A stretch of DNA of 64,000 bases from Dipteronia dyeriana (lineage: Eukaryota > Streptophyta > Magnoliopsida > Sapindales > Sapindaceae). Of this stretch, positions 32,419-64,000 are shown one piece after another; position 1 is the first letter of the stretch; every line of letters begins with the position of its first letter. Under the pieces are notes generated by a model. The model did not search any database, had not been told where the DNA came from, and saw nothing but the letters and a program-made list of their open reading frames with translations. The DNA lies in NCBI GenBank assembly GCA_032871835.1, contig CM065299.1:5055001-5119000 (forward strand). The letters are read 5' to 3'. A program made the position numbers and the translations under genes.

Positions 32419-32498
<80 letters not shown>

Positions 32499-33360
32499 CA
32501 CCATATACTTCAAAACTCATTTGACTAATATTTTTAGTTATATATATATAATTCTCAAATATGGATAATGTTTTTATGAATAATATATTATATATCATAT
32601 ATCATCATATAATAGTAATAGACTTGTTTCTCTACTTTTGATGTGTTCGTGACATGGGACAATCATAAATTTTATTATTTTTAACCTTTTTGTAATATAT
32701 CATATATGTAATCAATAGAAAATCACGTAATTAATGGAATAAATTCTCTTAACCAATCTCCGATTTGTAATTATTATGTATTTGTTTAAGTATTACACTA
32801 TTTGCTTAGTTTAAAAGACACACCATAATTCTTTTTTCCTAACAAGCCATATATTCGTATTAATTTTTTAAGTATTGTTAATTGGTTATAATATTTCAAA
32901 CAAAATATTGTTAATTAGTTTTTAGATATCTATATAATATACAATTAATTGCAATATTTTTTCCGAAATAAAAAATCTATATCTTATAATTAATGGGATA
33001 GTGAATAAATTCTCATAACCAATCTTATACTTGATTTTTAATTATTAAGTTATTAATATATAAATTAAATTTCCATTTATATTATTTATATTTCCAAGTT
33101 TATCGGATTTTGACTTAATTAATATCAATAATTGATTCAAATAGGAGGAATAAGAAGAATTAATTAGTATGAGAAAACCGAAATTATGCATTCAATGTTA
33201 TTAATTTTATTAAAATATTTTCCAATTATATCATTTATATTTCCAAGCTCAATGGATTTGACTCTGAAATATAATAATTGACCAGTATAAGAATAATACA
33301 AATAATTAATGGATTAACACAAGAAAACCAAGATTATACATTTAATGTAAGAATGTACCC
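32007..33360. other. 3' flank of copy 3, AT-rich
   Basis: 3' UTR-like sequence with AATAAA near 32147, then AT-rich flank. Long TA microsatellites lie at about 32318-32352 and 32418-32494, and the segment between and after them (TTCACC...TATACTTCAAAACTCA) is duplicated. No gene. Confidence 0.7.
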
Positions 33361-38258: not shown

Positions 38259-38344
38259 ATGGTTTATAATTCCTTAAAGCACAGAGTAATTATTTGCATT
38301 TAGTTTCATGCATTTAAGCATAACTTTGATTTTGTAACAACATC

Positions 38345-40556: not shown

Positions 40557-40630
40557 GTTGCCGACTACCCATTGGCTGCTGGACTGAGGCTTGGCTAGAA
40601 CCAGGTCCACGACTCTGTTGATAATTACTA
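40557..40630 (-). repeat. Inverted 74-bp copy of gag at the element breakpoint
   Basis: Reverse complement of 39157-39230 with one mismatch (GACTCTG here, GAATCTG expected). It joins the broken RT to unit 4 flank at TATGAGAAA. Confidence 0.92.
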
Positions 40631-40817
40631 TGAGAAAGCCGAAATTATGCATTCAATGTTATTAATTATTTTAAATTATTTTCCAATTATATAATTTATA
40701 TTTCCAAGTTCAATGGATTTGACTCTGAAATATATTTATTGACAAGTATAAGAATAATACAAATAATTAATGGATTAACACAAGAAAACCAAGATTATAC
40801 ATTTAATGTAAGAATGT
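40631..40817. other. Unit 4: distal 3' flank after the gene loss
   Basis: Resumes the unit at GAGAAAGCCGAAATTATGC, a point about 1.1 kb downstream of the gene in other units (compare 33173), and runs to the LINE start. Confidence 0.7.
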
Positions 40818-42470
40818 ACCACGGAGAGAAAAGGCGGCAACATGGTTTCGATCCGGAATTTCAATTCTTTCAATTTACGTGCCAATGTGATTGAAATTCC
40901 GCATCAGGTATTTCCTTTTACGTGGTCCAATCATAGAGTGAAGAAATCGTGGGCTCGGATTGATCGGTTCTTAATTTCTCCTTTGATGTTGTCATGGTTT
41001 CCCAATCTCTCGTAAAGTGGGCTACCAGGATCGATTTCAGATCATAATGTTATCATGATCTGTGAAACGCACGTCGATTGGGGTTCTTGGCCTTTTAGAT
41101 TTTACAATGGCTGGTTGGATGACAGAAGATTAGCAAAAGAAGCAATTAAAGGCGAGACTGATTGCAAAGTGGAGGACTCTTATGGATTTATTCTTTTCTC
41201 CTGAGTGAAAGCTGTTAAGATTTACACTAAACAGTGGTTGCGGGCAAACAATAAGGGTCCTAATCATATCAAGGGCATTTAGGATCGACTTGGGGAAATT
41301 GAGTGGAGAGCCAATAATGAGGGATGGACGAATGATATTAGAAAGGAAAGGCTTAAGTGTTTAGAGGATTATTGGCAGGTTCTTAGACGGGAAGAACAAA
41401 TGTGGAGGTAAAAATTGAGAGTGAAATGGTTGAAAGAGGGGGATAAGAACTCCAAATTCTTCCACTTAATGGCTAGTGGACGGAAGAGAGGAAATTACAT
41501 CGGGGATATGGATTTTGATGGTGTGAAGTGCACAAAACGCACTGATGTTCGCAAACTTGTTTTACAACACTTCTAGGATCTTTTCAAGAAAGTGGAATGG
41601 CAAAAGCCTAGACTTGGAGGACTGAATTTCAATTTGTTGTCGATAGAAGAATGGGAGGGTCATGAAATTGAATTTAGTATAGAAGAAGTGTGGAGCACAG
41701 AGTGTAGTTGTGACGGCAACAAAGCCCGAGTCTGGATGGATTGACTCTAAGTTTTATTCAAGTTAATTGAGAGGCAATTCGTGACAATTTTATTAGGTTC
41801 TTATCTGAATTCCATAAGAACAGCACTACAGTTAAAGAGATAAATAAAACTTTCATTTCTCTAGAGCCAAAATGTAGGAAACTAGAATTGATGAAGGATT
41901 TTTGGGCTGAATAGTTTGGTGGGGTGCATGTACAAAGTGTTGGCAAAGGTTCTAGCCAACCAAGTTAAGAGAGTTATGAACACTATTATTGGTGATTATC
42001 AAACGGCTTTCGTCAAGGATCGCCAAATCCTTGATAGTCTAGTGATTGCAGAAGAAATTATCCATAAGTAAAAAAGAGTCCAGATAGAGGGGAATTCTAC
42101 CGAAGCTAGATTTCGAAATAGCATACAACATTGTAAACCATAATTTTTTGTTGGACATGATGACGGGAATGATTTTTGGGGATATATGTAAAAGATGAAT
42201 GAGAGATGTTCTCTAAACATCAGCTTTATCGGTCTTGATAAATGGGAGTCGTACGTCAGAATTCAGAATAAAAAGAGGTCTTCGTTAATGGGATCCGCTC
42301 TCCCTTTTCCTTTTCAATAGGGTGGTCGAAGGTTTGAGCTTATTATTGGTGAAAGCTCACGATTTGGATATGATCAAAGGAGTTTCATTCGGTGATAACA
42401 TTATAACATGGCATTTCAATTCCTTTATGAGATCTAATTTTATAAAATGTGCTTTGTTAAAAAATATTTA
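40818..42470 (+). pseudogene. LINE endonuclease/RT relic, unit 4
   Basis: Same relic with endonuclease, linker and RT pieces. Near-identical to the relics of units 5-7 over long stretches, for example 40921-41600 against 51361-52040, so it is closer to these than to units 2 and 3. Multiple stops. Confidence 0.8.
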
Positions 42471-43340
42471 TATGCGATATGTATTTGTTTCCAATCCATA
42501 AACTCATTCGCATGTATTTGATTAAGAGTACAACTAAGTTCTGAGTGAATATTTGAGCCACCTCTTGTGAGAAGTAGATGTCAAATCGAATTCTATCTTG
42601 GGCATTCGAGTATGGGTGTTTTGTAAACCGAAAGCATCCAAAGTATTAGCATACATGAATGGCGTGGTATATTGATTTATAGGGCATAATTTTAGCTTGC
42701 ATGTAGTCTTTGTTTGTATGTGTGAGGTTACATCTCAACATTTTGGCTTTGTAGAGTTATGTTTATGAGTATCATAGCTGTAAACCCTCACGAGACTTCA
42801 CTCGTCCTCTAAGGATCGTCTAAAGGTTTAAAAGGCATGTCGCACACGCAAAGTGCCATCGTGGTCCCTAGAAAGTTGCCTAGTATAGATGTTATGCTTT
42901 TAGTTTTTTACATGTTTTTTTAGTTAGGTATTTCTTTTTTGATTATGTGAGTTTGTTTTGGTTTTGCTCGAGGACAAGCAAAATATAGGTTTGATGGTAT
43001 TTGATAGTATCTATTTCTACAATTGGTGTAACCCTAATTTCCTATTGTTTTCGTTCGTTCCTTGGGAATTTTTGTTATTTAATGTGTTTTGTGAGCTTTG
43101 TATCGGTAATCATCCAAAAATAAGTATCTAGAACTTAACTGAAGAGTTTGGAGGTTAAAAGAGCTGTAAGGGTAATGGTTTGTGCAAAATACTAACTTTT
43201 GAGGGTCATATCTTTCTCATTAGCGACCTGGAATTCGTGCTACATATATTCGGAAAGCCCCTGATGTGTAGTTTCTAGTTGTTTTTTTAGATTTCAATTC
43301 CGAGTTTTCTAGAGGGAGTTATGTACGTTTCCGAATTAAT
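42471..43340 (+). repeat. Athila-like 3' end and LTR-like sequence, cut by a foreign block
   Basis: Same upstream segment as other units (TGCGATATGTATTTG, GCTCGAGGACAAGCAAAATA), but it breaks at TCCGAATTAATT (43340), where a T-run and unrelated sequence start. No peptide gene follows here; the next unit restarts at 47467. Confidence 0.7.
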
Positions 43341-44595
43341 TTTTTTTTTTTGTTTTATTGAAAACTAATCCATTTAGGAGGCTCAAGTCAATAACTAAAC
43401 TCTTTTTGAAAAAATTGCAAAACTAACTCATTTTTTATGTGTAAGTACAACTATACCCTTACTTACTCACTTTTACATTTAACTTAACCTATCCAATATT
43501 TATACATATTATCCCACCACAACACCATTCTTTTCCTCTTATTTCCTCCTCTCTCTCCACTACAACACCCAATTTCGTTTCCTCCCATTCTCCTCTCCAA
43601 TTTTTTTTTTTTGTTCTCTCTTCCTTCATTTCGAATTTTAGTAATTATTTACATTCTCCATCTTTGAACAACTCAAAAATATTCATCCACAACAAGGGTA
43701 CCTTTGTATTCAAGCTTTTAGGTGAGTATTTTTTTTTAAAAAAAAAAATTATTGTTGAATCTCAGATTTTATTGTATTTGTGTTAATTTGTTGTTGAAAT
43801 AGTTTATATTTACATTATAAACCATGGGTCTTGTGTCAATTTGATGTTGTTGTGATCAATTTAAATTTTAAACATAAATACAAAGTATATTTCTATTTTT
43901 CATCTCTTTTTTACTTTCCTTTGTGCATTAGGATTGCTTATTTTTGTGAAAATTGTTTTCATCAATATAATATAGCATGGGTCTTCTACTTTTAAACAAT
44001 ATTTGCATTACACAGAGATGTGGTTTGCAGTAGGTAGGAAGACATTTTGTACAAACTGTGCAGATTTGTTATTGCACTACACAACATGGATTTTGTATAA
44101 ACTGTGCAGATTTGTTATTGCACTACACAACATGTATTTTGTACACAGCCAAGTAACATAATGTGCAGATTTTGCCTAAAAAGTTGATTTTTGTATAAAT
44201 TGTGCAGATTTTGTCCAGAACATCTATAAATTCCAAAATGTTAACATTTCACAACTTAGGTAACTTTACATAAATTCCATGATAAATCCATTTAGAATTA
44301 CACACAAAATATAATAATATAATAGTGTATCTAAACAATCCAATACTGTCAACATTGTACAAAACTTCAAGCAAATATAGACAAAATCACTACATCATGT
44401 CTTCCAACATTATTGTGTTTTCCAGGTACCTACAAATAAACACACAACATTATTAGATAAAAAATGATAGATACATTTTTAAAAATGGTTACTAATTTCA
44501 ACAGCGTTAGGAAAACTGGACTGAACATGTTTTCAAAAAAAAATGCTACCAATTGTAAAGATTCAATCCAATAATGGAAAATTAACCACACCAAC
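43341..44595. other. Foreign block, left part
   Basis: Sequence unrelated to the 5.5-kb units. It starts with a T-run and AAAACTAATCCATTTAGGAG. At 43540-43640 it is CT-rich like a plant 5' UTR, and CTTTTAGGTGAGTATTTTT (43708-43726) looks like a 5' splice site. A 45-bp unit (AAACTGTGCAGATTTGTTAT plus flank) is tandemly duplicated at about 44052-44142. No coding sequence is recognised; a captured 5' exon in a transposon is possible. Confidence 0.4.
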
Positions 44596-46327: not shown

Positions 46328-47466
46328 CCAACATCAAATTCACACAATACTCATGCTCTGATACATTCATATCAACTATTTTGACAAACATAAGCAACTC
46401 TGATGGATAAATTAAACTAAAAAACTTATTCAAACAAGAAAAAATCATTAAATTCATGTATAAAATTAAAATTGATCACACCAACATCAAATTCAACCAA
46501 GATCCATGCTCTATTATATTGATGGAAGCTATTTTAACAAAAATTAGCAACCCTAATGCACAAAGAAAGGTAAATAAGAGATTAAAAAAAAAACTTTAGA
46601 TTTATGTTTAAACTATAAATTGATCACAACAACATCAATGTATTATAGTTTAAATAATACCATATATGATGTCTTCTAACGATTCATACGAGGTTTCCCT
46701 TAAAATTGAAATTAAACTTGCCTTTCCAGATTGATACTTTAACTTACCACCACTTTCAATCCTTTCCCCATCGTATAAAACAACGAACCGAACTTTATCC
46801 ATGATACCTTTCAAATGAATAAGAAATCCATGATTAAATTCCTAAACAAATATTCTATACTTATGGTACAGTGAATTTATAAAACATTCTAAATCCAAAC
46901 TAAGTTAAAATCTTGATGCCGTAAGAATTCCCAACACAGTTAGGAATTCCCAACATCGTAAGGAATTCCCAACATCGTTAGGAATTCCCAACATCGTTAG
47001 GAATTCCCAACATCGTTAGGAATTCCAAACAAAGTTGGGAATTTCTAACGCAGTTAGGAATGCCCAACAACGTTGGGAATTCCCAATGCAGTTAGGAATT
47101 CCTAACTCTGTTTGGAATTCCTAGAATTCCTAACTCTGTTGGGAATTCCTAGAATTCCTAACTCTGTTGGGAATTCCTAGAATTCCTAATTCTGTTGGGA
47201 ATTCCCAACGCTGTTAAGAAAAACTGGGCTAGACAATTTTTTTTTTTTTAAAAAAAAAACTACCAATTGTGTAAATTCAATCCAACAATCAAAAATTAAC
47301 CACATCAACATAAAATTCACACAAGACCCATGCTCTATTACATTCATGTCAACTATTTTCATAAAAATAAGCAACCCTAATGCACAAATTAAACAAAAAA
47401 AAAATTCAAACATTAAATAAACTATAAATTTATGTATAAAATTAAAATTGACCACACCAACATCAA
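46328..47466. other. Foreign block, right part
   Basis: AT-rich sequence with diverged copies of one motif (ACACCAACATCAAATTCA, CCATGCTCTATTA, CTATTTT, AGCAACCCTAATGCACA) at about 46328, 46475 and 47300, so it is built from an internal repeat of roughly 150 bp or more. The palindromic minisatellite at 46920-47216 lies within. No gene is recognised. Confidence 0.5.
46920..47216. repeat. GGAATTCC minisatellite with inverted halves
   Basis: The left half (46920-47033) has about six copies of a 19-20 bp unit GTTAGGAATTCCCAACATC. The right half (about 47102-47216) has the inverse orientation (AACTCTGTTGGGAATTCCT). Each unit has a GGAATTCC palindrome. The two halves can pair as a long imperfect hairpin. 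Confidence 0.85.
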
Positions 47467-49059
47467 GCAACCTCTTGTGAGAAGTAGATATCAAAGCGAA
47501 TTCTATCTTGGGCATTCGAGTATGGGTGTTTTGTAAACCGAAAGCATCCTAAGTATTGGCATACATGAATGGCATGGTATATTGATTTACAGGGTATAAT
47601 TTTAGCCTGCATGTAGTCTTTACTGGTATGTACGAGGTTACATCTCAACATTTTGGCTTTGTAGAGTTATGTTTATGAGTATCGTAGCTGTAAACCCTCA
47701 CGAGACTTCACTCGTCCTCTAAGGATCGTCCAATGGTTTAAAAGGTATGTGGCACACGCAAAGAGCCATCGTGGTCACTAGAAAGTTGCCTAGTATAGAT
47801 GTTTGCTTTTAATTTTTGTTTATGTATTTTTAGTTAGGTTTTTTTTTATTACGTGTGTTCGTTTTGGTTTTGCTCGAGGACATGAAAAATATAGGTTTGA
47901 TGGTATTTGATAGTATCTATTTCTACAATTGGTGTAACCATAATTTCCTATTGTTTTCGTTCGTTCCTTGGGAAATTTATTGATTCAATGTGTTTTGTGA
48001 GCTTTGCATAGGTAATCATCCAAAAATAAGGTGCTCGAACTTAACTGAAGAGATTTGGAGGTTAAGATAGTTGTAAGGGTAACGGTTTGTGCAAAATACA
48101 AAACTTTTAAGGGTCAATCTTTCTCCTTTGATCAACCTGGAATTCGTGCTACGTATATTCGGAAAGCCCCTGATGTGTACTTTCTAGAGGTTTTTTTAGA
48201 TTGCAATTCTGAGTTTTTTAGAGGGAGTTATGTACGTTTTCGAATTAATTAGTTTTTCTTTAATGTTATGACTTGTTTTTTTAACTTACCGTATAATGAT
48301 TCTTATACCATGCTAGCACATCGTGTGGGAAGCAAACTGATATATTTAATTATATATGTTTGGATTGGTTTCAAGGTTTAGAAAAGCTAGACTAAGACTA
48401 AGACCTAAAACGAAATCGAAACCGGAACTAGACCCGCACCAGACCCTTTAAAATAATAGCATGTGCGGGTATAGTTCCAACCTATAGGAACCTGTCCTTT
48501 TTGCCAATCCGCATTGGTTTTCTAGGTAAAAAGCTAATATAATGGTTGCATTTAAAAGATATAATTAGAATTTTGAAGGCTGTAGAAAGTAAATTTTGAT
48601 TTTTAAAATTTTAAAGATGGGTTGATTGAGTAAACGGTGCACTGGGAAATATTATGGACGGCAATAGAACCATCCAAGACAAAAGGAGAGTTGTTGAGAA
48701 GATTTTTATGGAGTTGTAAATTATTATGGAGTATTTTTTTTCCTTTAGTATTATTTTAAAAATATTCATTGATTACCAAATATAAATAAATTAAGAGTGA
48801 AAGTCAACGCAATAATTAATATTTTTAATATGTTACCGTTAATAATTTTTAAATTATCTTTCTATTTTTAACCTTTATTTTAAATGTACAATATGTATTC
48901 GATACACTACGATTATTTTCAATTTTATTTATTTTATAAATATATTTTTCGAAACAATTTAATATTACCATGTTTTTCTAAATTTGTTCTAAAATATATT
49001 TATTTATCATGACCGTTTATAAAAATATTTAAAAGCTTTTATTACATATGGATTCTTTT

Positions 49060-49136
49060 TTCGGTCAAAAGAATTTTACATCACCAAAAAAATATATTCT
49101 TTTTTAGAAAATAATTGACTCCCACCCTATAAATAG
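49060..49136 (+). promoter_or_regulatory. Core promoter, peptide gene copy 5
   Basis: CTATAAATAG (49127-49136) lies 65 bp before the ATG. TTGACT (49115-49120) directly upstream and GGTCAA (49063-49068, TTGACC on the other strand) both fit the W-box core bound by WRKY factors. The block is conserved in all copies. The transcription start is probably near TTCATTTCTTACACTC (49149-49164), giving a leader of about 35-40 nt. Confidence 0.6.
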
Positions 49137-49191
49137 ACATGAAATCTTCATTTCTTACACTCAATCTAAAAGTTATTAGCAGGATAAGAAA

Positions 49192-50028
49192 ATGGTGAAA
49201 ATGAAGTACTTGATTGCTTTCTTCATCGCAGTGTTGGCCACTGTTGCCAGTTTGGACAAAGTGCAAGCCAGAACCGAACTCTCGATGGCAAATCCTACGA
49301 GGAGGGTCCCACATGGGCCAAACCCATCAACTAGCCCGGAATCTCCGCCTGCTGCACTGGTGGAAAAGCCTACGAGGAAGGTTCCACGTGGGCCAAACCC
49401 AGCAACTAGCCCGGAATCTCCGCCTTCTACATTAGTGGTAAAGCCTACGAGGAAGGTTCCACGTGGGCCAAACCCAGCAACCAGTCCAGAATCTCCGCCT
49501 GCTGCACTTTTGGCAAAGCCTACGAGGAAGGTTCCACGTGGGCCAAACCCAGCAACTAGCCCGGGATCTCCGCCTGCTGCACTGGTGGAAAAGCCTACGA
49601 GGAAGGTTCCCCGTGGGCCAAACCCAGCAACTAGCCCGGGATCTCCGCCTGCTGCACTGGTGGAAAAGCCTACGAGGAAGGTTCCACGTGGGCCAAACCC
49701 AGCAACCAGTCCAGAATCTCCGCCTGCTGCACTTTTGGCAAAGCCTACGAGGAAGGTTCCACGTGGGCCAAACCCAGCAACTAGCCCGGAATCTCCGCCT
49801 GCTGCACTGGTGGAAAAGCCTACGAGGAAGGTTCCCCGTGGGCCAAACCCAGCAACTAGCCCGGGATCTCCGCCTGCTGCACTGGTGGAAAAGCCTACGA
49901 GGAAGGTTCCCCGTGGGCCAAACCCAGCAACTAGCCCGGGATCTCCTCCTGCTGCACTGAAACCTACGAGGAAGGTTCCACGTGGGCCAAACCCAGCAAC
50001 TAGCCCGGAATCTCCTCCCTCTGTCTAA
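49192..50028 (+). CDS. Multi-repeat CLE-like secreted peptide precursor, copy 5 (intact, 278 aa)
   Basis: Intronless. Residues 1-26 form a signal peptide (MVKMKYLIAFFIAVLATVAS core, cleavage likely after KVQA), so the product should enter the secretory pathway. A 10-residue linker is followed by ten repeats, eight of 25 residues, one of 23 and a final 19. Each has the core RKVPRGPNPATS (first copy RRVPHGPNPSTS) and a spacer P-E/G-S-P-P-A-A-L-V-E-K-P-T. Positions 1-9 of the core match the CLE hormone consensus R-x-V-P-x-G-P-N/D-P, close to Arabidopsis CLE26 as I recall it; positions 10-12 do not (A-T-S for the usual I/L-H-N). Basic residues before each core could serve as cleavage sites. The second in-frame ATG at codon 4 could also start. 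A proline-rich cell-wall protein is the main alternative. The coding part is much richer in GC than its flanks. Confidence 0.7.
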   Translation: MVKMKYLIAFFIAVLATVASLDKVQARTELSMANPTRRVPHGPNPSTSPESPPAALVEKPTRKVPRGPNPATSPESPPSTLVVKPTRKVPRGPNPATSPESPPAALLAKPTRKVPRGPNPATSPGSPPAALVEKPTRKVPRGPNPATSPGSPPAALVEKPTRKVPRGPNPATSPESPPAALLAKPTRKVPRGPNPATSPESPPAALVEKPTRKVPRGPNPATSPGSPPAALVEKPTRKVPRGPNPATSPGSPPAALKPTRKVPRGPNPATSPESPPSV

Positions 50029-51252
50029 TGTAGACAAATCCCAGTCTCGTCCATGACGAGTTATGATCATGGGTTGAAAGATATGTGATATTTTGGGTTA
50101 CTTCAGCTCTGTTTTACATTATGTAACTAATGTTAGTTACTTTGCTTTCTATCATTTCGAATAAACATCCGATTAATTTGGATCTCGTCCTAGATTTTTT
50201 TTTTTAATTTTTAATCATTTAGTTTTTCCGTTAATTTAACATTATCTAAAATGAATCTAGCCAAAATATCCAATTTCTAGTGACAACAGTTTGTAATCTT
50301 TAAATAGAAAGGAAAAGAGAGAATAATATTAAATATATATATTTAAAAACATTTTTCACCGTATGCTCGAAAACTCATTTGACTAATATTTTTAGATAAT
50401 ATGATATATATATATATAATTCTCAAATGTGGTTAATGTTTTTATAAATCATATATTATATATCATATATCATCATATAATAGTGATAGATTTTTTCACT
50501 ACTTTTGATGTGTTTGTGACACATCACAATCATAAATTTAATTATTTTTAACCTTTTTTTTTAATTTATCATATATGTAATCAAGAGGAAATCACGTAAT
50601 TAATGGAATAAATTCTCTTAACCAATCTCCGATTTGTAATTATTAAGTATTTTTTTTTTAAAGTATTACATTATTTGGTTAGTTTAAAGGACACGCCATA
50701 ATTCTTTTTTCCTAACAAGCCATAGAATCGTATTATTTTTTTTAAGTATTGTTTATTGGTTATAATATTTCAAACAAAATATTGTTAATTAGTATTAGTT
50801 ATCTATATAATATACAATTAATTGTAATATTTTTTAATAATACAATATATTTTCCGAAATCAAAAATCAATATCACATAATTAATGGGATAGTGAATAAA
50901 TTCTCATAACCAATCTTATACTTGATTTTTAATTATTAAGTTATTAGTTTATAAATTAAATTTCCATTTCTATTATTTATATTTCCAAGTTTATCGGATT
51001 TTGACTTAATTAATATCAATAATTGATTCAAATAGGAGGAATATGAAGAATTATCGGATTAGTATGAGAAAACCGAAATTATGCATTCAATGTTAATAAT
51101 TTTATTAAATTATTTTCCAATTATATAATTTATATTTCCAAGTTCAATTGATTTGACTCTGAAATATAATAATTGACCGGTATAAGAATAATACAAATAA
51201 TTAATGGATTAACACAAGAAAACCACGGTCATACATTTATTGTAAGAATGTA
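50029..51252. other. 3' UTR and AT-rich flank of copy 5
   Basis: 3' UTR followed by AT-rich sequence up to AAGAATGTACCA, where the LINE relic starts. The TA microsatellites are much shorter here than in units 1-3. No gene. Confidence 0.7.
50160..50165 (+). terminator. Poly(A) signal, peptide gene copy 5
   Basis: AATAAA 132 bp after the stop, in TTTCGAATAAACATCC, kept in the other copies. Confidence 0.6.
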
Positions 51253-52892
51253 CCACGGAGAGAAAAGGCGGAGGGTGCAACATGGTTTCGATCCGGAATT
51301 TCAATTCTTTCAATTTACGTGCCAAGGTGATTGACATTCCGCTTCGGGGAATTCCTTTTACGTGGTCCAATCATAGAGTGTAGGAGTCGTGGGCTCGGAT
51401 TGATCGGTTCTTAATTTCTCCTTTGATGTTGTCATGGTTTCCCAATCTCTCTTAAAGGGGGCTACCAGGATCGATTTCAGATCATAATGTTATCATGATC
51501 TGTGAAACGCACGTCGATTGGGGTTCTTGGCCTTTTAGATTTTACAATGGCTGGTTGGATGACAGAAGATTAGCAAAAGAAGCAATTAAAGGCGAGACTG
51601 ATTGCAAAGTGGAGGACTCTTATGGATTTATTCTTTTCTCCTGAGTGAAAGCTGTTAAGATTTACACTAAACAGTGGTTGCGGGCAAACAATAAGGGTCC
51701 TAGTCATATCAAGGGCATTTAGGATCGACTTGGGGAAATTGAGTGGAGAGCCAATAATGAGGGATGGACGAATGATATTAGAAAGGAAAGGCTTAAGTGT
51801 TTAGAGGATTATTGGCAGGTTCTTAGACGGGAAGAACAAATGTGGAGGTAAAAATTGAGAGTGAAATGGTTGAAAGAGGGGGATAAGAACTCCAAATTCT
51901 TCCACTTAATGGCTAGTGGACGGAAGAGAGGAAATTACATCGGGGATATGGATTTTGATGGTGTGAAGTGCACAAAACGCACTGATGTTCGCAAACTTGT
52001 TTTACAACACTTCTAGGATCTTTTCAAGAAAGTGGAATGGCAAAAGCCTAGACTTGGAGGACTGGATTTAAATTTGTTGTCGATAGAAGAATGGGAGGGT
52101 CTTGAAACTGAATTTAGTATAGAAGAAGTGTGGAGCACGGAGTGTAGTTGTGATGGCAACAAAGCCCGGGTCTGGATGGATTGACTCTAGGTTTTATTCA
52201 AGTTAATTGTGAGGCGATTCGTGACGGTTTTATTAGGTTCTTATATGAATTCAACAAGAACAGCACTATAGTTAAAAAGATAAATAAAACTTTCATTTCT
52301 CTAGTGCCAAAATGTAGGAAACCGGAATTGATGAAGGATTTTGGGTCGAATAGTTTGGCGGGGTGCATGTACAAAGTGTTGGCAAAGGTTCTAGCCAACC
52401 AAGTTAAGAGAGTTATGAACATTATTATTGGTGATTATCAAATGGCTTTTGTCAAGGATCGCCAAATCCTTGATAGTCTATTGATTGAAGAAGAAATTGT
52501 CCATAAGTGAAAAAGAGTCCAGATGAAGGGGAATCCTACTGAAGCTATATTTCGAAATAGCATACAATATTGTAGACCATGATGACGGGTATGGGTTTTG
52601 GGGATATGTGGAAAAGATGGATGAGGGATGTTATCTAAACATCGGCTTTATCGGTCTTGATAAATTGGAGTCCTACGTCGGAATTCAAAATAAAAAGAGG
52701 TCTTCGTTAAGGGGATCCGCTCCCCCCTTCCCTTTTCAATATGTATGTAGAAGGTTTGAGCTTATTATTGGTGAAAGCTCACGATTTGGATATGATCAAA
52801 GGAGTTTCATTCGGTGATAACATTATAACATGGCATTTCAATTCCTTTATGAGATCTATTTTTATAAAATGTGCTTTGTTAAAAAATATTTA
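51253..52892 (+). pseudogene. LINE endonuclease/RT relic, unit 5
   Basis: Endonuclease C-terminus (51300-51560), linker with VKWLKEGDKNSKFFHLM (51861-51911) and the RT start. An open block at 52181-52510 reads FISLVPKCRKPELMKDF, AGCMYKVLAKVLANQVKR and GDYQMAFVKDRQILDSLLI, typical of plant L1 RT. After it, about 30 bp are missing at GTAGACCATGATGACGG compared with unit 4. The RT catalytic block is absent, so the relic is inert and travels as part of the tandem unit. Confidence 0.85.
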
Positions 52893-54572
52893 TATGCGAT
52901 ATGTATTTGTTTCCAATCCATAAACTCATTCGCATGTGTTTGATTAAGAGTACGAATAAGTTCTGAGTGAATATTCGAGCAACCTCTTGTGAGAAGTAGA
53001 TATCAAAGCGAATTCTATCTTGGGCATTCGAGTATGAGTGTTTTGTAAACCGAAAGCATCCTAAGTATTGGCATACATGAATGGCGTGGTATGTTGATTT
53101 ACAGGGCATAATTTTAGCCTGCATGTAGTCTTTGCTGGTATGTACGAGGTTACATCTCAACATTTTGGCTTTGTAGAGTTATGTTTATGAGTATCGTAGC
53201 TGTAAACCCTCACGAGACTTCACTCGTCCTCTAAGGATCGTCCAATGGTTTAAAAGGTATGTGGCACACGCAAAGAGCCATCGTGGTCACTAGAAAGTTG
53301 CCTAGTATAGATGTTTGCTTTTAATTTTTGTTTATGTATTTTTAGTTAGGTTTTTTTTTTATTACGTGTGTTCGTTTTGGTTTTGCTCGAGGACAAGAAA
53401 AATATAGGTTTGATGGTATTTGATAGTATCTATTTCTACAATTGGTGTAACCCTAATTTCCTATTGTTTTCGTTCGTTCCTTGGGAAATTTAGTGATTCA
53501 ATGTGTTTTGTGAGCTTTGCATAGGTAATCATCCAAAAATAAGGTGCTCGAACTTAACTGAAGAGATTTGGAGGTTAAGATAGTTGTAAGGGTAACGGTT
53601 TGTGCAAAATACCAAACTTTTAAGGGTCAATCTTTCTCCTTTGATCAACCTGGAATTCGTGCTACGTATATTCGGAAAGCCCCTGATGTGTAGTTTCTAG
53701 CGGTTTTTTTAGATTGCAATTCTGAGTTTTTTAGAGGGAGTTATGTACGTTTTCGAATTAATTAGTTTTTCTTTAATGTTATGACTTGTTTTTTTAACTT
53801 ACCGGATAATGATTCTTATACCATGCTAGCACATCGTGTGGGAAGCAAACTGATATATTTAATTATATATGTTTGGATTGGTTTCAAGGTTTAGAAAAGC
53901 TAGACTAAGACTAAGACCTAAAACGAAATCGAAACCGGAACTAGACCCGCACCAGACCCTTTAAAATAATAGCATGTGCGGGTATAGTTCCAACCTATAG
54001 GAACCTGTCCTTTTTGCCAATCCGCATTGGTTTTCTAGGTAAAAAGCTAATATAATGGTTGCATTTAAAAGATATAATTAGAATTTTGAAGGCTGTAGAA
54101 AGTAAATTTTGATTTTTAAAATTTTAAAGATGGGTTGATTGAGTAAACGGTGCACTGGGAAATATTATGGACGGCAATAGAACCATCCAAGACAAAAGGA
54201 GAGTTGTTGAGAAGATTTTTATGGAGTTGTAAATTATTATGGAGTATTTTTTTTCCTTTAGTATTATTTTAAAAATATTCATTGATTACCAAATATAAAT
54301 AAATTAAGAGTGAAAGTCAACGCAATAATTAATATTTTTAATATGTTACCGTTAATAATTTTTAAATTATCTTTCTATTTTTAACCTTTATTTTAAATGT
54401 ACAATATGTATTCGATACACTACGATTATTTTCAATTTTATTTATTTTATAAATATATTTTTCGAAACAATTTAATATTACCATGTTTTTCTAAATTTGT
54501 TCTAAAATATATTTATTTATCATGACCGTTTATAAAAATATTTAAAAGCTTTTATTACATATGGATTCTTTT

Positions 54573-54649
54573 TTCGGTCAAAAGAATTTTACATCACCAA
54601 AAAAATATATTCTTTTTTAGAAAATAATTGACTCCCACCCTATAAATAG
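54573..54649 (+). promoter_or_regulatory. Core promoter, peptide gene copy 6
   Basis: Same block as copy 5 with CTATAAATAG at 54640-54649, 65 bp before the ATG, and the same two W-box-like cores. Confidence 0.6.
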
Positions 54650-54704
54650 ACATGAAATCTTCATTTCTTACACTCAATCTAAAAGTTATTAGCAGGATAA
54701 GAAA

Positions 54705-55541
54705 ATGGTGAAAATGAAGTACTTGATTGCTTTCTTCATCGCAGTGTTGGCCACTGTTGCCAGTTTGGACAAAGTGCAAGCCAGAACCGAACTCTCGATG
54801 GCAAATCCTACGAGGAGGGTCCCACATGGGCCAAACCCATCAACTAGCCCGGAATCTCCGCCTGCTGCACTGGTGGAAAAGCCTACGAGGAAGGTTCCAC
54901 GTGGGCCAAACCCAGCAACTAGCCCGGAATCTCCGCCTTCTACATTAGTGGTAAAGCCTACGAGGAAGGTTCCACGTGGGCCAAACCCAGCAACCAGTCC
55001 AGAATCTCCGCCTGCTGCACTTTTGGCAAAGCCTACGAGGAAGGTTCCACGTGGGCCAAACCCAGCAACTAGCCCGGGATCTCCGCCTGCTGCACTGGTG
55101 GAAAAGCCTACGAGGAAGGTTCCCCGTGGGCCAAACCCAGCAACTAGCCCGGGATCTCCGCCTGCTGCACTGGTGGAAAAGCCTACGAGGAAGGTTCCAC
55201 GTGGGCCAAACCCAGCAACCAGTCCAGAATCTCCGCCTACTGCACTTTTGGCAAAGCCTACGAGGAAGGTTCCACGTGGGCCAAACCCAGCAACTAGCCC
55301 GGAATCTCCGCCTGCTGCACTGGTGGAAAAGCCTACGAGGAAGGTTCCCCGTGGGCCAAACCCAGCAACTAGCCCGGGATCTCCGCCTGCTGCACTGGTG
55401 GAAAAGCCTACGAGGAAGGTTCCCCGTGGGCCAAACCCAGCAACTAGCCCGGGATCTCCTCCTGCTGCACTGAAACCTACGAGGAAGGTTCCACGTGGGC
55501 CAAACCCAGCAACTAGCCCGGAATCTCCTCCCTCTGTCTAA
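54705..55541 (+). CDS. Multi-repeat CLE-like secreted peptide precursor, copy 6 (intact, 278 aa)
   Basis: Same architecture as copy 5: signal peptide, linker and ten repeats. The only protein difference is a threonine for alanine in the spacer of repeat 6 (PPTALLA against PPAALLA), from a single G-to-A change near 55239. All ten cores are identical to copy 5, so the two genes would release the same peptides. The shared promoter suggests the same expression, and the extra copies would raise dosage. Confidence 0.7.
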   Translation: MVKMKYLIAFFIAVLATVASLDKVQARTELSMANPTRRVPHGPNPSTSPESPPAALVEKPTRKVPRGPNPATSPESPPSTLVVKPTRKVPRGPNPATSPESPPAALLAKPTRKVPRGPNPATSPGSPPAALVEKPTRKVPRGPNPATSPGSPPAALVEKPTRKVPRGPNPATSPESPPTALLAKPTRKVPRGPNPATSPESPPAALVEKPTRKVPRGPNPATSPGSPPAALVEKPTRKVPRGPNPATSPGSPPAALKPTRKVPRGPNPATSPESPPSV

Positions 55542-56765
55542 TGTAGACAAATCCCAGTCTCGTCCATGACGAGTTATGATCATGGGTTGAAAGATATGTG
55601 ATATTTTGGGTTACTTCAGCTCTGTTTTACATTATGTAACTAATGTTAGTTACTTTGCTTTCTATCATTTCGAATAAACATCCGATTAATTTGGATCTCG
55701 TCCTAGATTTTTTTTTTTAATTTTTAATCATTTAGTTTTTCCGTTAATTTAACATTATCTAAAATGAATCTAGCCAAAATATCCAATTTCTAGTGACAAC
55801 AGTTTGTAATCTTTAAATAGAAAGGAAAAGAGAGAATAATATTAAATATATATATTTAAAAACATTTTTCACCGTATGCTCGAAAACTCATTTGACTAAT
55901 ATTTTTAGATAATATGATATATATATATATAATTCTCAAATGTGGTTAATGTTTTTATAAATCATATATTATATATCATATATCATCATATAATAGTGAT
56001 AGATTTTTTCACTACTTTTGATGTGTTTGTGACACATCACAATCATAAATTTAATTATTTTTAACCTTTTTTTTTAATTTATCATATATGTAATCAAGAG
56101 GAAATCACGTAATTAATGGAATAAATTCTCTTAACCAATCTCCGATTTGTAATTATTAAGTATTTTTTTTTTAAAGTATTACATTATTTGGTTAGTTTAA
56201 AGGACACGCCATAATTCTTTTTTCCTAACAAGCCATAGAATCGTATTATTTTTTTTAAGTATTGTTTATTGGTTATAATATTTCAAACAAAATATTGTTA
56301 ATTAGTATTAGTTATCTATATAATATACAATTAATTGTAATATTTTTTAATAATACAATATATTTTCCGAAATCAAAAATCAATATCACATAATTAATGG
56401 GATAGTGAATAAATTCTCATAACCAATCTTATACTTGATTTTTAATTATTAAGTTATTAGTTTATAAATTAAATTTCCATTTCTATTATTTATATTTCCA
56501 AGTTTATCGGATTTTGACTTAATTAATATCAATAATTGATTCAAATAGGAGGAATATGAAGAATTATCGGATTAGTATGAGAAAACCGAAATTATGCATT
56601 CAATGTTAATAATTTTATTAAATTATTTTCCAATTATATAATTTATATTTCCAAGTTCAATTGATTTGACTCTGAAATATAATAATTGACCGGTATAAGA
56701 ATAATACAAATAATTAATGGATTAACACAAGAAAACCACGGTCATACATTTATTGTAAGAATGTA
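55542..56765. other. 3' UTR and AT-rich flank of copy 6
   Basis: Counterpart of 50029-51252, nearly identical; no gene. Confidence 0.7.
55673..55678 (+). terminator. Poly(A) signal, peptide gene copy 6
   Basis: AATAAA 132 bp after the stop, as in copy 5. Confidence 0.6.
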
Positions 56766-58406
56766 CCACGGAGAGAAAAGGCGGAGGGTGCAACATGGTT
56801 TCGATCCGGAATTTCAATTCTTTCAATTTACGTGCCAAGGTGATTGACATTCCGCTTCGGGGAATTCCTTTTACGTGGTCCAATCATAGAGTGTAGGAGT
56901 CGTGGGCTCGGATTGATCGGTTCTTAATTTCTCCTTTGATGTTGTCATGGTTTCCCAATCTCTCTTAAAGGGGGCTACCAGGATCGATTTCAGATCATAA
57001 TGTTATCATGATCTGTGAAACGCACGTCGATTGGGGTTCTTGGCCTTTTAGATTTTACAATGGCTGGTTGGATGACAGAAGATTAGCAAAAGAAGCAATT
57101 AAAGGCGAGACTGATTGCAAAGTGGAGGACTCTTATGGATTTATTCTTTTCTCCTGAGTGAAAGCTGTTAAGATTTACACTAAACAGTGGTTGCGGGCAA
57201 ACAATAAGGGTCCTAGTCATATCAAGGGCATTTAGGATCGACTTGGGGAAATTGAGTGGAGAGCCAATAATGAGGGATGGACGAATGATATTAGAAAGGA
57301 AAGGCTTAAGTGTTTAGAGGATTATTGGCAGGTTCTTAGACGGGAAGAACAAATGTGGAGGTAAAAATTGAGAGTGAAATGGTTGAAAGAGGGGGATAAG
57401 AACTCCAAATTCTTCCACTTAATGGCTAGTGGACGGAAGAGAGGAAATTACATCGGGGATATGGATTTTGATGGTGTGAAGTGCACAAAACGCACTGATG
57501 TTCGCAAACTTGTTTTACAACACTTCTAGGATCTTTTCAAGAAAGTGGAATGGCAAAAGCCTAGACTTGGAGGACTGGATTTAAATTTGTTGTCGATAGA
57601 AGAATGGGAGGGTCTTGAAACTGAATTTAGTATAGAAGAAGTGTGGAGCACGGAGTGTAGTTGTGATGGCAACAAAGCCCGGGTCTGGATGGATTGACTC
57701 TAGGTTTTATTCAAGTTAATTGTGAGGCGATTCGTGACGGTTTTATTAGGTTCTTATATGAATTCAACAAGAACAGCACTATAGTTAAAAAGATAAATAA
57801 AACTTTCATTTCTCTAGTGCCAAAATGTAGGAAACCGGAATTGATGAAGGATTTTGGGTCGAATAGTTTGGCGGGGTGCATGTACAAAGTGTTGGCAAAG
57901 GTTCTAGCCAACCAAGTTAAGAGAGTTATGAACATTATTATTGGTGATTATCAAATGGCTTTTGTCAAGGATCGCCAAATCCTTGATAGTCTATTGATTG
58001 AAGAAGAAATTGTCCATAAGTGAAAAAGAGTCCAGATGAAGGGGAATCCTACTGAAGCTAGATTTCGAAATAGCATACAATATTGTAGACCATGATGACG
58101 GGTATGGGTTTTGGGGATATGTGGAAAAGATGGATGAGGGATGTTATCTAAACATCGGCTTTATCGGTCTTGATAAATTGGAGTCCTACGTCGGAATTCA
58201 AAATAAAAAGAGGTCTTCGTTAAGGGGATCCGCTCCCCCCTTCCCTTTTCAATATGTCTGTAGAAGGTTTGAGCTTATTATTGGTGAAAGCTCACGATTT
58301 GGATATGATCAAAGGAGTTTCATTCGGTGATAACATTATAACATGGCATTTCAATTCCTTTATGAGATCTATTTTTATAAAATGTGCTTTGTTAAAAAAT
58401 ATTTAT
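56766..58406 (+). pseudogene. LINE endonuclease/RT relic, unit 6
   Basis: Copy of the unit 5 relic with the same stops and the same open RT block (57694-58023). It differs at single bases, for example AATATGTCTGTAG at 58251 where units 5 and 7 have AATATGTATGTAG. Confidence 0.85.
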
Positions 58407-60084
58407 ATGCGATATGTATTTGTTTCCAATCCATAAACTCATTCGCATGTGTTTGATTAAGAGTACGAATAAGTTCTGAGTGAATATTCGAGCAACCTCT
58501 TGTGAGAAGTAGATATCAAAGCGAATTCTATCTTGGGCATTCGAGTATGAGTGTTTTGTAAACCGAAAGCATCCTAAGTATTGGCATACATGAATGGCGT
58601 GGTATATTGATTTACAGGGCATAATTTTAGCCTGCATGTAGTCTTTGCTGGTATGTACGAGGTTACATCTCAACATTTTGGCTTTGTAGAGTTATGTTTA
58701 TGAGTATCGTAGCTGTAAACCCTCACGAGACTTCACTCGTCCTCTAAGGATCGTCCAATGGTTTAAAAGGTATGTGGCACACGCAAAGAGCCATCGTGGT
58801 CACTAGAAAGTTGCCTAGTATAGATGTTTGCTTTTAATTTTTGTTTATGTATTTTTAGTTAGGTTTTTTTTTATTACGTGTGTTCGTTTTGGTTTTGCTC
58901 GAGGACAAGAAAAATATAGGTTTGATGGTATTTGATAGTATCTATTTCTACAATTGGTGTAACCCTAATTTCCTATTGTTTTCGTTCGTTCCTTGGGAAA
59001 TTTAGTGATTCAATGTGTTTTGTGAGCTTTGCATAGGTAATCATCCAAAAATAAGGTGCTCGAACTTAACTGAAGAGATTTGGAGGTTAAGATAGTTGTA
59101 AGGGTAACGGTTTGTGCAAAATACCAAACTTTTAAGGGTCAATCTTTCTCCTTTGATCAACCTGGAATTCGTGCTACGTATATTCGGAAAGCCCCTGATG
59201 TGTAGTTTCTAGCGGTTTTTTTAGATTGCAATTCTGAGTTTTTTAGAGGGAGTTATGTACGTTTTCGAATTAATTAGTTTTTCTTTAATGTTATGACTTG
59301 TTTTTTTAACTTACCGGATAATGATTCTTATACCATGCTAGCACATCGTGTGGGAAGCAAACTGATATATTTAATTATATATGTTTGGATTGGTTTCAAG
59401 GTTTAGAAAAGCTAGACTAAGACTAAGACCTAAAACGAAATCGAAACCGGAACTAGACCCGCACCAGACCCTTTAAAATAATAGCATGTGCGGGTATAGT
59501 TCCAACCTATAGGAACCTGTCCTTTTTGCCAATCCGCATTGGTTTTCTAGGTAAAAAGCTAATATAATGGTTGCATTTAAAAGATATAATTAGAATTTTG
59601 AAGGCTGTAGAAAGTAAATTTTGATTTTTAAAATTTTAAAGATGGGTTGATTGAGTAAACGGTGCACTGGGAAATATTATGGACGGCAATAGAACCATCC
59701 AAGACAAAAGGAGAGTTGTTGAGAAGATTTTTATGGAGTTGTAAATTATTATGGAGTATTTTTTTTCCTTTAGTATTATTTTAAAAATATTCATTGATTA
59801 CCAAATATAAATAAATTAAGAGTGAAAGTCAACGCAATAATTAATATTTTTAATATGTTACCGTTAATAATTTTTAAATTATCTTTCTATTTTTAACCTT
59901 TATTTTAAATGTACAATATGTATTCGATACACTACGATTATTTTCAATTTTATTTATTTTATAAATATATTTTTCGAAACAATTTAATATTACCATGTTT
60001 TTCTAAATTTGTTCTAAAATATATTTATTTATCATGACCGTTTATAAAAATATTTAAAAGCTTTTATTACATATGGATTCTTTT

Positions 60085-60161
60085 TTCGGTCAAAAGAATT
60101 TTACATCACCAAAAAAATATATTCTTTTTTAGAAAATAATTGACTCCCACCCTATAAATAG
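60085..60161 (+). promoter_or_regulatory. Core promoter, peptide gene copy 7
   Basis: CTATAAATAG at 60152-60161, 65 bp before the ATG, in the same block as copies 5 and 6. Confidence 0.6.
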
Positions 60162-60216
60162 ACATGAAATCTTCATTTCTTACACTCAATCTAAAAGTTA
60201 TTAGCAGGATAAGAAA

Positions 60217-61053
60217 ATGGTGAAAATGAAGTACTTGATTGCTTTCTTCATCGCAGTGTTGGCCACTGTTGCCAGTTTGGACAAAGTGCAAGCCAGAACC
60301 GAACTCTCTATGGCAAATCCTACGAGGAGGGTCCCACATGGGCCAAACCCATCAACTAGCCCGGAATCTCCGCCTGCTGCACTGGTGGAAAAGCCTACGA
60401 GGAAGGTTCCACGTGGGCCAAACCCAGCAACTAGCCCGGAATCTCCGCCTTCTACATTAGTGGTAAAGCCTACGAGGAAGGTTCCACGTGGGCCAAACCC
60501 AGCAACCAGTCCAGAATCTCCGCCTGCTGCACTTTTGGCAAAGCCTACGAGGAAGGTTCCACGTGGGCCAAACCCAGCAACTAGCCCGGGATCTCCGCCT
60601 GCTGCACTGGTGGAAAAGCCTACGAGGAAGGTTCCCCGTGGGCCAAACCCAGCAACTAGCCCGGGATCTCCGCCTGCTGCACTGGTGGAAAAGCCTACGA
60701 GGAAGGTTCCACGTGGGCCAAACCCAGCAACCAGTCCAGAATCTCCGCCTGCTGCACTTTTGGCAAAGCCTACGAGGAAGGTTCCACGTGGGCCAAACCC
60801 AGCAACTAGCCCGGAATCTCCGCCTGCTGCACTGGTGGAAAAGCCTACGAGGAAGGTTCCCCGTGGGCCAAACCCAGCAACTAGCCCGGGATCTCCGCCT
60901 GCTGCACTGGTGGAAAAGCCTACGAGGAAGGTTCCCCGTGGGCCAAACCCAGCAACTAGCCCGGGATCTCCTCCTGCTGCACTGAAACCTACGAGGAAGG
61001 TTCCACGTGGGCCAAACCCAGCAACTAGCCCGGAATCTCCTCCCTCTGTCTAA
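60217..61053 (+). CDS. Multi-repeat CLE-like secreted peptide precursor, copy 7 (intact, 278 aa)
   Basis: The protein is identical to copy 5 along its full length. A silent change (CTCTCTATGGC for CTCTCGATGGC near 60309) distinguishes the DNA. Ten repeats, same order of spacer types (VE, VV, LA, VE, VE, LA, VE, VE, K, end). Intactness alone does not prove function, because the non-coding parts of these units are just as similar; the copies are simply recent. Confidence 0.7.
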   Translation: MVKMKYLIAFFIAVLATVASLDKVQARTELSMANPTRRVPHGPNPSTSPESPPAALVEKPTRKVPRGPNPATSPESPPSTLVVKPTRKVPRGPNPATSPESPPAALLAKPTRKVPRGPNPATSPGSPPAALVEKPTRKVPRGPNPATSPGSPPAALVEKPTRKVPRGPNPATSPESPPAALLAKPTRKVPRGPNPATSPESPPAALVEKPTRKVPRGPNPATSPGSPPAALVEKPTRKVPRGPNPATSPGSPPAALKPTRKVPRGPNPATSPESPPSV

Positions 61054-62280
61054 TGTAGACAAATCCCAGTCTCGTCCATGACGAGTTATGATCATGGGTT
61101 GAAAGATATGTGATATTTTGGGTTACTTCAGCTCTGTTTTACATTATGTAACTAATGTTAGTTACTTTGCTTTCTATCATTTCGAATAAACATCCAATTA
61201 ATTTGGATCTCGTCCTAGATTTTTTTTTTTAATTTTTAATCATTTAGTTTTTCCGTTAATTTAACATTATCTAAAATGAATCTAGCCAAAATATCCAATT
61301 TCTAGTGACAACAGTTTGTAATCTTTAAATAGAAAGGAAAAGAGAGAATAATATTAAATATATATATTTAAAAACATTTTTCACCGTATGCTCGAAAACT
61401 CATTTGACTAATATTTTTAGATAATATGATATATATATATATATATAATTCTCAAATGTGGTTAATGTTTTTATAAATCATATATTATATATCATATATC
61501 ATCATATAATAGTGATAGATTTTTTCACTACTTTTGATGTGTTTGTGACACATCACAATCATAAATTTATTTATTTTTAACCTTTTTTTTTAATTTATCA
61601 TATATGTAATCAAGAGGAAATCACGTAATTAATGGAATAAATTCTCTTAACCAATCTCCGATTTGTAATTATTAAGTATTTTTTTTTTAAAGTATTACAT
61701 TATTTGGTTAGTTTAAAGGACACGCCATAATTCTTTTTTCCTAACAAGCCATAGAATCGTATTATTTTTTTTAAGTATTGTTTATTGGTTATAATATTTC
61801 AAACAAAATATTGTTAATTAGTATTAGTTATCTATATAATATACAATTAATTGTAATATTTTTTAATAATACAATATATTTTCCGAAATCAAAAATCAAT
61901 ATCACATAATTAATGGGATAGTGAATAAATTCTCATAACCAATCTTATACTTGATTTTTAATTATTAAGTTATTAGTTTATAAATTAAATTTCCATTTCT
62001 ATTATTTATATTTCCAAGTTTATCGGATTTTGACTTAATTAATATCAATAATTGATTCAAATAGGAGGAATATGAAGAATTATCGGATTAGTATGAGAAA
62101 ACCGAAATTATGCATTCAATGTTAATAATTTTATTAAATTATTTTCCAATTATATAATTTATATTTCCAAGTTCAATTGATTTGACTCTGAAATATAATA
62201 ATTGACCGGTATAAGAATAATACAAATAATTAATGGATTAACACAAGAAAACCACGGTCATACATTTATTGTAAGAATGT
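61054..62280. other. 3' UTR and AT-rich flank of copy 7
   Basis: Counterpart of 50029-51252. The TA run near 61429-61446 is four bases longer than in units 5 and 6. No gene. Confidence 0.7.
61185..61190 (+). terminator. Poly(A) signal, peptide gene copy 7
   Basis: AATAAA 132 bp after the stop, as in copies 5 and 6. Confidence 0.6.
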
Positions 62281-63922
62281 ACCACGGAGAGAAAAGGCGG
62301 AGGGTGCAACATGGTTTCGATCCGGAATTTCAATTCTTTCAATTTACGTGCCAAGGTGATTGACATTCCGCTTCGGGGAATTCCTTTTACGTGGTCCAAT
62401 CATAGAGTGTAGGAGTCGTGGGCTCGGATTGATCGGTTCTTAATTTCTCCTTTGATGTTGTCATGGTTTCCCAATCTCTCTTAAAGGGGGCTACCAGGAT
62501 CGATTTCAGATCATAATGTTATCATGATCTGTGAAACGCACGTCGATTGGGGTTCTTGGCCTTTTAGATTTTACAATGGCTGGTTGGATGACAGAAGATT
62601 AGCAAAAGAAGCAATTAAAGGCGAGACTGATTGCAAAGTGGAGGACTCTTATGGATTTATTCTTTTCTCCTGAGTGAAAGCTGTTAAGATTTACACTAAA
62701 CAGTGGTTGCGGGCAAACAATAAGGGTCCTAGTCATATCAAGGGCATTTAGGATCGACTTGGGGAAATTGAGTGGAGAGCCAATAATGAGGGATGGACGA
62801 ATGATATTAGAAAGGAAAGGCTTAAGTGTTTAGAGGATTATTGGCAGGTTCTTAGACGGGAAGAACAAATGTGGAGGTAAAAATTGAGAGTGAAATGGTT
62901 GAAAGAGGGGGATAAGAACTCCAAATTCTTCCACTTAATGGCTAGTGGACGGAAGAGAGGAAATTACATCGGGGATATGGATTTTGATGGTGTGAAGTGC
63001 ACAAAACGCACTGATGTTCGCAAACTTGTTTTACAACACTTCTAGGATCTTTTCAAGAAAGTGGAATGGCAAAAGCCTAGACTTGGAGGACTGGATTTAA
63101 ATTTGTTGTCGATAGAAGAATGGGAGGGTCTTGAAACTGAATTTAGTATAGAAGAAGTGTGGAGCACGGAGTGTAGTTGTGATGGCAACAAAGCCCGGGT
63201 CTGGATGGATTGACACTAGGTTTTATTCAAGTTAATTGTGAGGCGATTCGTGACGGTTTTATTAGGTTCTTATATGAATTCAACAAGAACAGCACTATAG
63301 TTAAAAAGATAAATAAAACTTTCATTTCTCTAGTGCCAAAATGTAGGAAACCGGAATTGATGAAGGATTTTGGGTCGAATAGTTTGGCGGGGTGCATGTA
63401 CAAAGTGTTGGCAAAGGTTCTAGCCAACCAAGTTAAGAGAGTTATGAACATTATTATTGGTGATTATCAAATGGCTTTTGTCAAGGATCGCCAAATCCTT
63501 GATAGTCTATTGATTGAAGAAGAAATTGTCCATAAGTGAAAAAGAGTCCAGATGAAGGGGAATCCTACTGAAGCTAGATTTCGAAATAGCATACAATATT
63601 GTAGACCATGATGACGGGTATGGGTTTTGGGGATATGTGGAAAAGATGGATGAGGGATGTTATCTAAACATCGGCTTTATCGGTCTTGATAAATTGGAGT
63701 CCTACGTCGGAATTCAAAATAAAAAGAGGTCTTCGTTAAGGGGATCCGCTCCCCCCTTCCTTTTTCAATATGTATGTAGAAGGTTTGAGCTTATTATTGG
63801 TGAAAGCTCACGATTTGGATATGATCAAAGGAGTTTCATTCGGTGATAACATTATAACATGGCATTTCAATTCCTTTATGAGATCTATTTTTATAAAATG
63901 TGCTTTGTTAAAAAATATTTAT
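62281..63922 (+). pseudogene. LINE endonuclease/RT relic, unit 7
   Basis: Copy of the unit 5 relic with the same defects; open RT block at 63210-63539. It differs at single bases, for example GATTGACACTAGG at 63208 where units 5 and 6 have GATTGACTCTAGG. Confidence 0.85.
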
Positions 63923-64000
63923 ATGCGATATGTATTTGTTTCCAATCCATAAACTCATTCGCATGTGTTTGATTAAGAGTACGAATAAGTTCTGAGTGAA

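Follow-up and report, generated by a model that had tools for sequence, protein, structure and literature searches.

Candidate multi-domain CLE-type peptide precursors in a recently duplicated gene array of Dipteronia dyeriana

Are the tandem repeats encoded by a cluster of near-identical genes in Dipteronia dyeriana (Sapindaceae) peptide hormones of the CLE type, packed many to a precursor, or are they parts of a proline-rich wall protein, or of a coding minisatellite copied passively along with the DNA around it? The genes in question lie in a 64,000-nucleotide stretch of contig CM065299.1 (assembly GCA_032871835.1, positions 5,055,001 to 5,119,000, forward strand), hereafter the window. Three of them, D1, D2 and D3, are intact and make up the cluster at 49192..61053 to which a sequence-only reading had drawn attention; BLAST with the gene plus its flanks recognizes three further, older copies, A, B and C, outside that interval (at 15757, 24151 and 29479-32006), so that the cluster stands as described while the extent given for the family does not. 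We consider that D1-D3 probably encode multi-domain CLE-type precursors, from which many near-identical peptides would be released.

D1 (49192..50028), D2 (54705..55541) and D3 (60217..61053), all on the forward strand, are intronless, single-exon open reading frames (ORFs) of 278 codons each. The protein of D3 is identical to that of D1, with one synonymous difference between the genes, and the protein of D2, of the same architecture, carries a single linker change, Ala to Thr. All three precursors begin with MVKMKYLIAFFIAVLATVASLDKVQA, followed by ten residues and then by the first of ten cores. In D1, residues 1-26 (49192..49269) likely constitute a signal peptide, with the hydrophobic core YLIAFFIAVLATV and a cleavage site placed by eye after VQA; the 15-residue hydropathy peak of the precursor (2.67) falls at residues 7-21 and, judged by hydropathy only, the N-terminus is a likely secretion signal in D1-D3, the CLE-like repeats being probably secreted. 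The ten units occupy 49291..50025 in D1, 54804..55538 in D2, and 60316..61050 in D3, and they are also detected as 75-bp tandem repeats of 9.8 copies each (49286-50015, 54799-55528, and 60311-61040). In D1, cores begin at residues 37, 62, 87, 112, 137, 162, 187, 212, 237, and 260, a spacing of 25 residues with the exception of the last, of 23, where unit 9 is two codons short, and unit 10 terminates in SPPSV and the stop codon. The precursors of ten 25-residue units, as originally proposed, are recovered save for the length of unit 9, and the core RKVPRGPNP, proposed for every unit, is found in nine of the ten units of D1, which carry RKVPRGPNPATS, the first carrying RRVPHGPNPSTS, of the RRVPHGPNP type. 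A TATAAATA TATA box lies 64 bp upstream of the ATG in D1 (49128..49135, forward strand), as it does in D2, D3, B, and C (74 bp in A), and an AATAAA is present 131 bases downstream of the stop codon in D1 (50160..50165, forward strand), D2, D3, and C (155 in A, 154 in B).

Each intact gene is carried by one module of a head-to-tail tandem array (47463..64000) of three modules of 5.51 kb, starting at 47463, 52975, and 58488 and 99.6-99.7% identical, with 24 mismatches in the 11,027 bp over which modules one and two align with modules two and three, and 18 mismatches over 5513 bp between modules one and three. As the array reaches the end of the window (64000), further copies may follow. An assembly artefact was considered as the source of the near-identity and is disfavored, the differences being module-specific and unevenly placed, which fits real duplication better. 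Expansion is also seen at a finer scale: units 3-5 and 6-8 of D1 form a 225-bp higher-order repeat (unit identity of 96.3% at an offset of three versus 89.3-92.3% at offsets of 1, 2, 4, and 5), and therefore this gene also grew from within. These repeats and the motif scan described next agree with the early view of a CLE-like, clustered, and expanding family.

To what extent are the units CLE-like? On a scoring matrix built from 50 published poplar CLE motifs, all from single-motif genes, the core RKVPRGPNPATS scores 18.1 bits. In a six-frame scan of the window, 46 of the 60,936 stop-free 12-mers score above 8 bits, and all 46 are units of this gene family. When one unit was shuffled 20,000 times, its score was never reached; when the entire proline-rich mature protein was shuffled 2000 times, it was exceeded at least once (maximum of 19.43 versus 18.08), and so composition alone can occasionally mimic one motif. 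When the unit was aligned with 19 reference peptides (7 of CLE, 12 of other families; 2000 shuffles each), the seven CLE peptides aligned in the expected register, with z of 3.6 to 7.3 and 0 to 5 shuffles as good, and the 12 others gave z of 1.3 or less, the best match being a unit of rice CLE76 (9/12 identical, z 7.3). R1, P4, G6, P7, and P9 are present in all ten units of D1, and each is present in 26-27 of the 28 units of A, B, C, and D1. The prolines modified in known CLEs, 4 and 7, are retained, as had been claimed, in 27/28 and 26/28 units, respectively. Over these 28 units, minor residues have on average a frequency of 0.065 at the positions named as conserved in a published CLE paper (1, 4, 6, 7, 9, and 11) versus 0.193 elsewhere, and positions 2, 5, and 10 are variable, as they are among CLEs. 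A set chosen after seeing the units, at positions where they agree with CLE (R1, V3, P4, G6, P7, N8, P9), is the best of 25 rotations, matched by 662 of 480,700 column sets. The match to the CLE consensus that had been noted extends over positions 1-9 and fails at positions 10-12 (ATS), which lack the usual His-11 and to which we attribute the low matrix score; the ending, conserved with Thr-11 in 26/28 and Ser-12 in 28/28 units, is the TS ending of rice CLE76. The regular spacing of multi-domain CLE precursors, 24-37 residues in most, is also found (25, once 23).

Codon variation provides modest support for a coding function under selection, with few variants available. Codons 1-19 of D1 units 2-10 contain six synonymous variants and one non-synonymous (P 0.002-0.004, with ~27-30% synonymous expected), the ratio of non-synonymous to synonymous change (pN/pS) is 0.22 for the ten units of D1 and, across the 18 units of copies A to C, 0.72, and the inter-unit indel in the arrays is of whole codons.

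Several observations weigh against this assignment. Every poplar CLE outscores the core in a leave-one-out comparison (minimum of 21.2 bits), and the TS-type units of rice CLE76 do so too (24.1-24.6 bits). His-11, among the most conserved CLE residues (87% in Medicago and 91% in Lotus), is absent, being replaced by Thr in 26 and by Ile in 2 of the 28 units; it is not strictly CLE-defining, since TDIF (Ser) and rice CLE76 (Thr) are also without it. The conservation of the published positions is only moderate, with 4574 of 177,100 six-column sets as conserved (~2.6%), or 4.6% of sets when only A, B, and C are taken (18 units), and these positions rank second of 25 rotations, one other being better. 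The first core is at residue 37, compared to residues 51-75 in the five multi-CLE proteins of Oelkers et al. (PMC2254619), so that D1 has no variable domain. With 278 residues and ten motifs, it also departs from the pattern of a 60-120-residue CLE precursor with one motif near the C-terminus, a pattern from which known multi-CLE members depart too. As to selection, with unit 1 included the variants are seven synonymous and five non-synonymous (P 0.02-0.04), one antisense frame in D1 gives a pN/pS of 0.24, near that of the sense frame, other frames of the decayed copies give lower values (0.41 and 0.53) than the sense frame, and the signal-peptide region of four copies gives a pooled pN/pS of 0.73. 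Antisense and shifted ORFs over the arrays were taken as by-products of the 75-bp repeat. Given the antisense value, the choice of reading frame rests on the signal-like N-terminus, the TATA box, and the CLE match, not on the ratio. On balance we place the D genes with multi-domain CLE precursors, although they have neither His-11 nor a variable domain and score outside the range of known members.

One alternative, in our view an unlikely one, is that the arrays are a non-functional coding minisatellite, that is, a former CLE family copied passively within a transposon-rich 5.5-kb module, with frames that are open only through recency. Of the six gene copies, three are broken or shortened, the gene seems to be missing from two modules, changes in the decayed copies are dominated by C-to-T and G-to-A (the direction being assumed), and D1-D3 are too similar for selection between them to show, all of which speak for passive copying. 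However, the variants in units 2-10 of D1 are mostly synonymous, as above, the protein core stays constant in nine of the ten units of D1 but has often changed in the decayed copies, and the TATA box and the start region are retained.

It is likewise improbable that the genes encode a hydroxyproline-rich structural or arabinogalactan-type protein, its chain remaining intact and O-glycosylated in the wall, with the CLE resemblance due to chance. Arabinogalactan proteins are recognized by Pro, Ala, Ser, and Thr making up more than half of the mature protein. As a composition screen, this also fits the mature D1 protein (144 of 252 residues, 70 of them Pro), a further count against the CLE assignment, and it holds 10 SPP and 20 [AST]P motifs. 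Extensins are marked by SPPPP blocks and Tyr cross-link motifs; the mature protein has no SPPP, Tyr, VYK, or YVY motifs and so lacks these marks. The core fits CLE peptides far better than shuffles do, and no other stretch of the unit varies as much as the spacer end (minor-residue frequencies of 0.43, 0.22, and 0.65 at positions 21, 22, and 25), both of which argue against a wall protein. A Pfam profile search returned no match for D1 and none for a control, AtCLE41, and therefore Pfam cannot decide between the two families. One of two multi-CLE genes of radish was formerly named a proline-rich receptor-like kinase (PMC11172632), showing how easily CLE precursors and proline-rich proteins are confused. 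A third alternative, another secreted hydroxyproline-rich signal, HypSys-like or of a family of its own, with the spacer or the full 25-mer as the mature peptide, is very improbable: the SPxSPP stretch is well conserved (S18 in 27/28, P20 in 23/24) and no basic residue immediately follows the core, but HypSys I, HypSys II, and systemin align no better than shuffles (z of -0.9 to -1.0) and the spacer end varies more than any other part of the unit.

If D1-D3 are multi-domain CLE-type precursors, the steps past translation, which we infer, could be as follows. A single precursor would be translated and directed by its signal peptide into the secretory pathway, where prolines 4 and 7 of each unit would be hydroxylated and proline 7 perhaps arabinosylated. 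Modification of P7 in known CLEs is reported in the literature. Proteases of the subtilase type would cut near or before Arg-1 of each RKVPRGPNPATS, and the proline-rich spacer would be trimmed after S12, yielding up to nine identical peptides and one variant, RRVPHGPNPSTS, from each precursor. The released peptides might be perceived by a leucine-rich repeat receptor kinase of the CLV1/BAM/PXY type, and both the intragenic repeat expansion and the duplication of the 5.5-kb modules could raise the peptide dose.

A more ambitious proposal, which we entertain as a possible but doubtful one, is that the locus amplifies hormone dose. Its genes would form a separate CLE subclass with a T-S end instead of H-N or H-H, in which repeat number and gene number have very recently grown side by side, and one cluster could supply tens of copies of one signal, possibly with a lineage-specific receptor or a role in defence or symbiosis. 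Peptide amplification by multi-CLE proteins is an idea of Oelkers et al. (PMC2254619). It was not borne out in switchgrass: PvTDIFL3, a multi-motif precursor (two or three TDIF-like motifs) that has been cloned and expressed, differs from D1 in being of the TDIF-like class, and the multi-motif genes had no amplified effect in Arabidopsis, where the forms with several motifs acted more subtly than the gene with one, evidence against a simple dose effect in that case (PMC8496505). The authors of a wheat study speculate that TaCLE26 acts through its first domain only.

Are such precursors new? Multi-domain CLE precursors remain a minority of CLE genes, as the sequence-only reading had it, but its suggestion that the kind may be undescribed finds no support, since the literature holds precursors of up to nine domains, from rice, Lotus, Medicago, soybean, radish, and Brassica. 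Rice CLE75 and CLE76 have six and four domains (Oelkers et al., 2008, PMC2254619); Lotus LjCLE32 and LjCLE33 have eight and nine, Medicago MtCLE14 seven, and soybean GmCLE37a/b six (PMC5570945, PMC4526924); radish RsCLEm1 and RsCLEm2 have eight and Brassica BnCLEm3 five (PMC11172632); and a tally of 59 multi-CLE proteins in 27 species is attributed to Goad et al. (2017; as cited by PMC8496505). The closest unit among the published sequences compared is the rice multi-CLE unit RKVPTGPDPITS, with 9/12 residues equal to RKVPRGPNPATS, including the unusual T11-S12 end, and with a proline-rich tail. The units of CLE76, RKVPTGPDPITS or REVPSGPDPITS, are spaced 25-29 residues apart, with the motifs in a single exon, as in D1; CLE76 differs in having four units, the first at residue 65, as opposed to ten from residue 37 with Arg-5, Asn-8, and Ala-10 in D1 (PMC2254619). 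RsCLEm1, RsCLEm2, and BnCLEm3 are similar in their eight and five tandem domains with short spacers, near-identical in BnCLEm3, and the radish genes were earlier named actin-binding and proline-rich proteins; the likeness is one of description, not sequence, and a module array is not reported in the text available (PMC11172632). The legume genes (LjCLE32/33/46/47, MtCLE14/22/26/27, and GmCLE37a/b), compared by description as well, have three to nine domains per precursor, and in Lotus and Medicago the repeat unit is 24-35 residues long and the whole precursor 116-347 residues; they differ in that five of the ten genes have at least seven domains, and in that the domains within a precursor often differ (four are identical in MtCLE14; PMC5570945, PMC4526924). 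What is notable in D1-D3 is the combination of ten near-identical units, no variable domain, the TS ending, and a young gene array, and a count of ten units would exceed that of every precursor among the published descriptions found, the maximum there being nine (LjCLE33). A literature text search, mostly without subscription journals or figure text, returned no paper with the exact core (RKVPRGPNP, RRVPRGPNP, and longer forms), and a search for endings of the GPNPATS, GPNPTTS, and GPDPITS types matched only the source of rice CLE76 (PMC2254619). Scans of prokaryote and viral contigs gave no relative, as expected for a plant gene, and Rfam, tRNA, and PDB sequence searches gave no match. We set aside tblastn matches on two Bacillus plasmids, at 27-30% identity, as low-complexity matches of proline-rich sequence.

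The processing of multi-CLE precursors is little known, according to two papers. If the units are processed, this locus would be a good one for asking why some plants pack many peptide copies into one precursor, as adjacent ORFs of three, four, and ten units and near-identical tandem genes are natural variants for separating dose from unit number. Such genes can also escape annotation, as the radish examples (PMC11172632) and AtCLE41, without a Pfam match, illustrate.

The older copies, on the forward strand, document the decay of the family. Copy A (15757..16092) is an ORF of 111 residues with a signal peptide and three units, after which the frame is lost, a unit remnant extending to ~16208. 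Copy B (24151..24570) is an ORF of 139 residues with a signal peptide, four complete units, and a stop codon in unit 5, units 5-7 extending to 24769. Copy C (29479..32006) is broken, by a stop codon at residue 27 as well as by an element inserted within unit 2; the insertion (29714..31543, 1830 bp) has TG...CA ends, a 5-bp target-site duplication, GCCTT, and no stop-free frame longer than 164 codons, and is probably a solo long terminal repeat. Changes in the units relative to the D1 consensus are mainly C-to-T or G-to-A, with the direction assumed, 13 of 18 in A (15848-16203), 25 of 42 in B (24245-24769), and 25 of 33 in C (29573-32006), the pattern expected for methylated repeats.

The gene appears to be lost from two further modules, which have breaks after 36432 and after 43351. 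Older module sequence 3' of copy C (32467..36432) runs into a module without the gene region, other DNA following from 36433 to 40623, and 40624..43351 appears to comprise the downstream part of this gene-less module, to 42552, and the first 0.8 kb of another, to 43351, the division being our inference. With these two included, the window would hold at least eight copies of the module. Both stretches in which the gene-less modules come to an end carry a copy of a 1.7-kb segment containing short tandem repeats of the GGTAGGCAT type (36512-38186 and 44598-46314, 87.5% identity). Units of the GAATTCC type, 19 and 28 bp long, form arrays at 46925-47205, the young array starting ~260 bp to the right, and each young module has a fragment resembling the reverse transcriptase of a long interspersed nuclear element (52154-52507, 57667-58020, and 63183-63536), of which the first, the only one scanned, has a weak match to PF00078 (E 0.018, under the curated cut-off). 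The G+C content of the window is low, 0.25-0.45 in 2-kb steps, and the retroelement pieces in it comprise a gag-pre-integrase with an integrase, a retrotransposon gag, a zinc knuckle, and two reverse-transcriptase matches.

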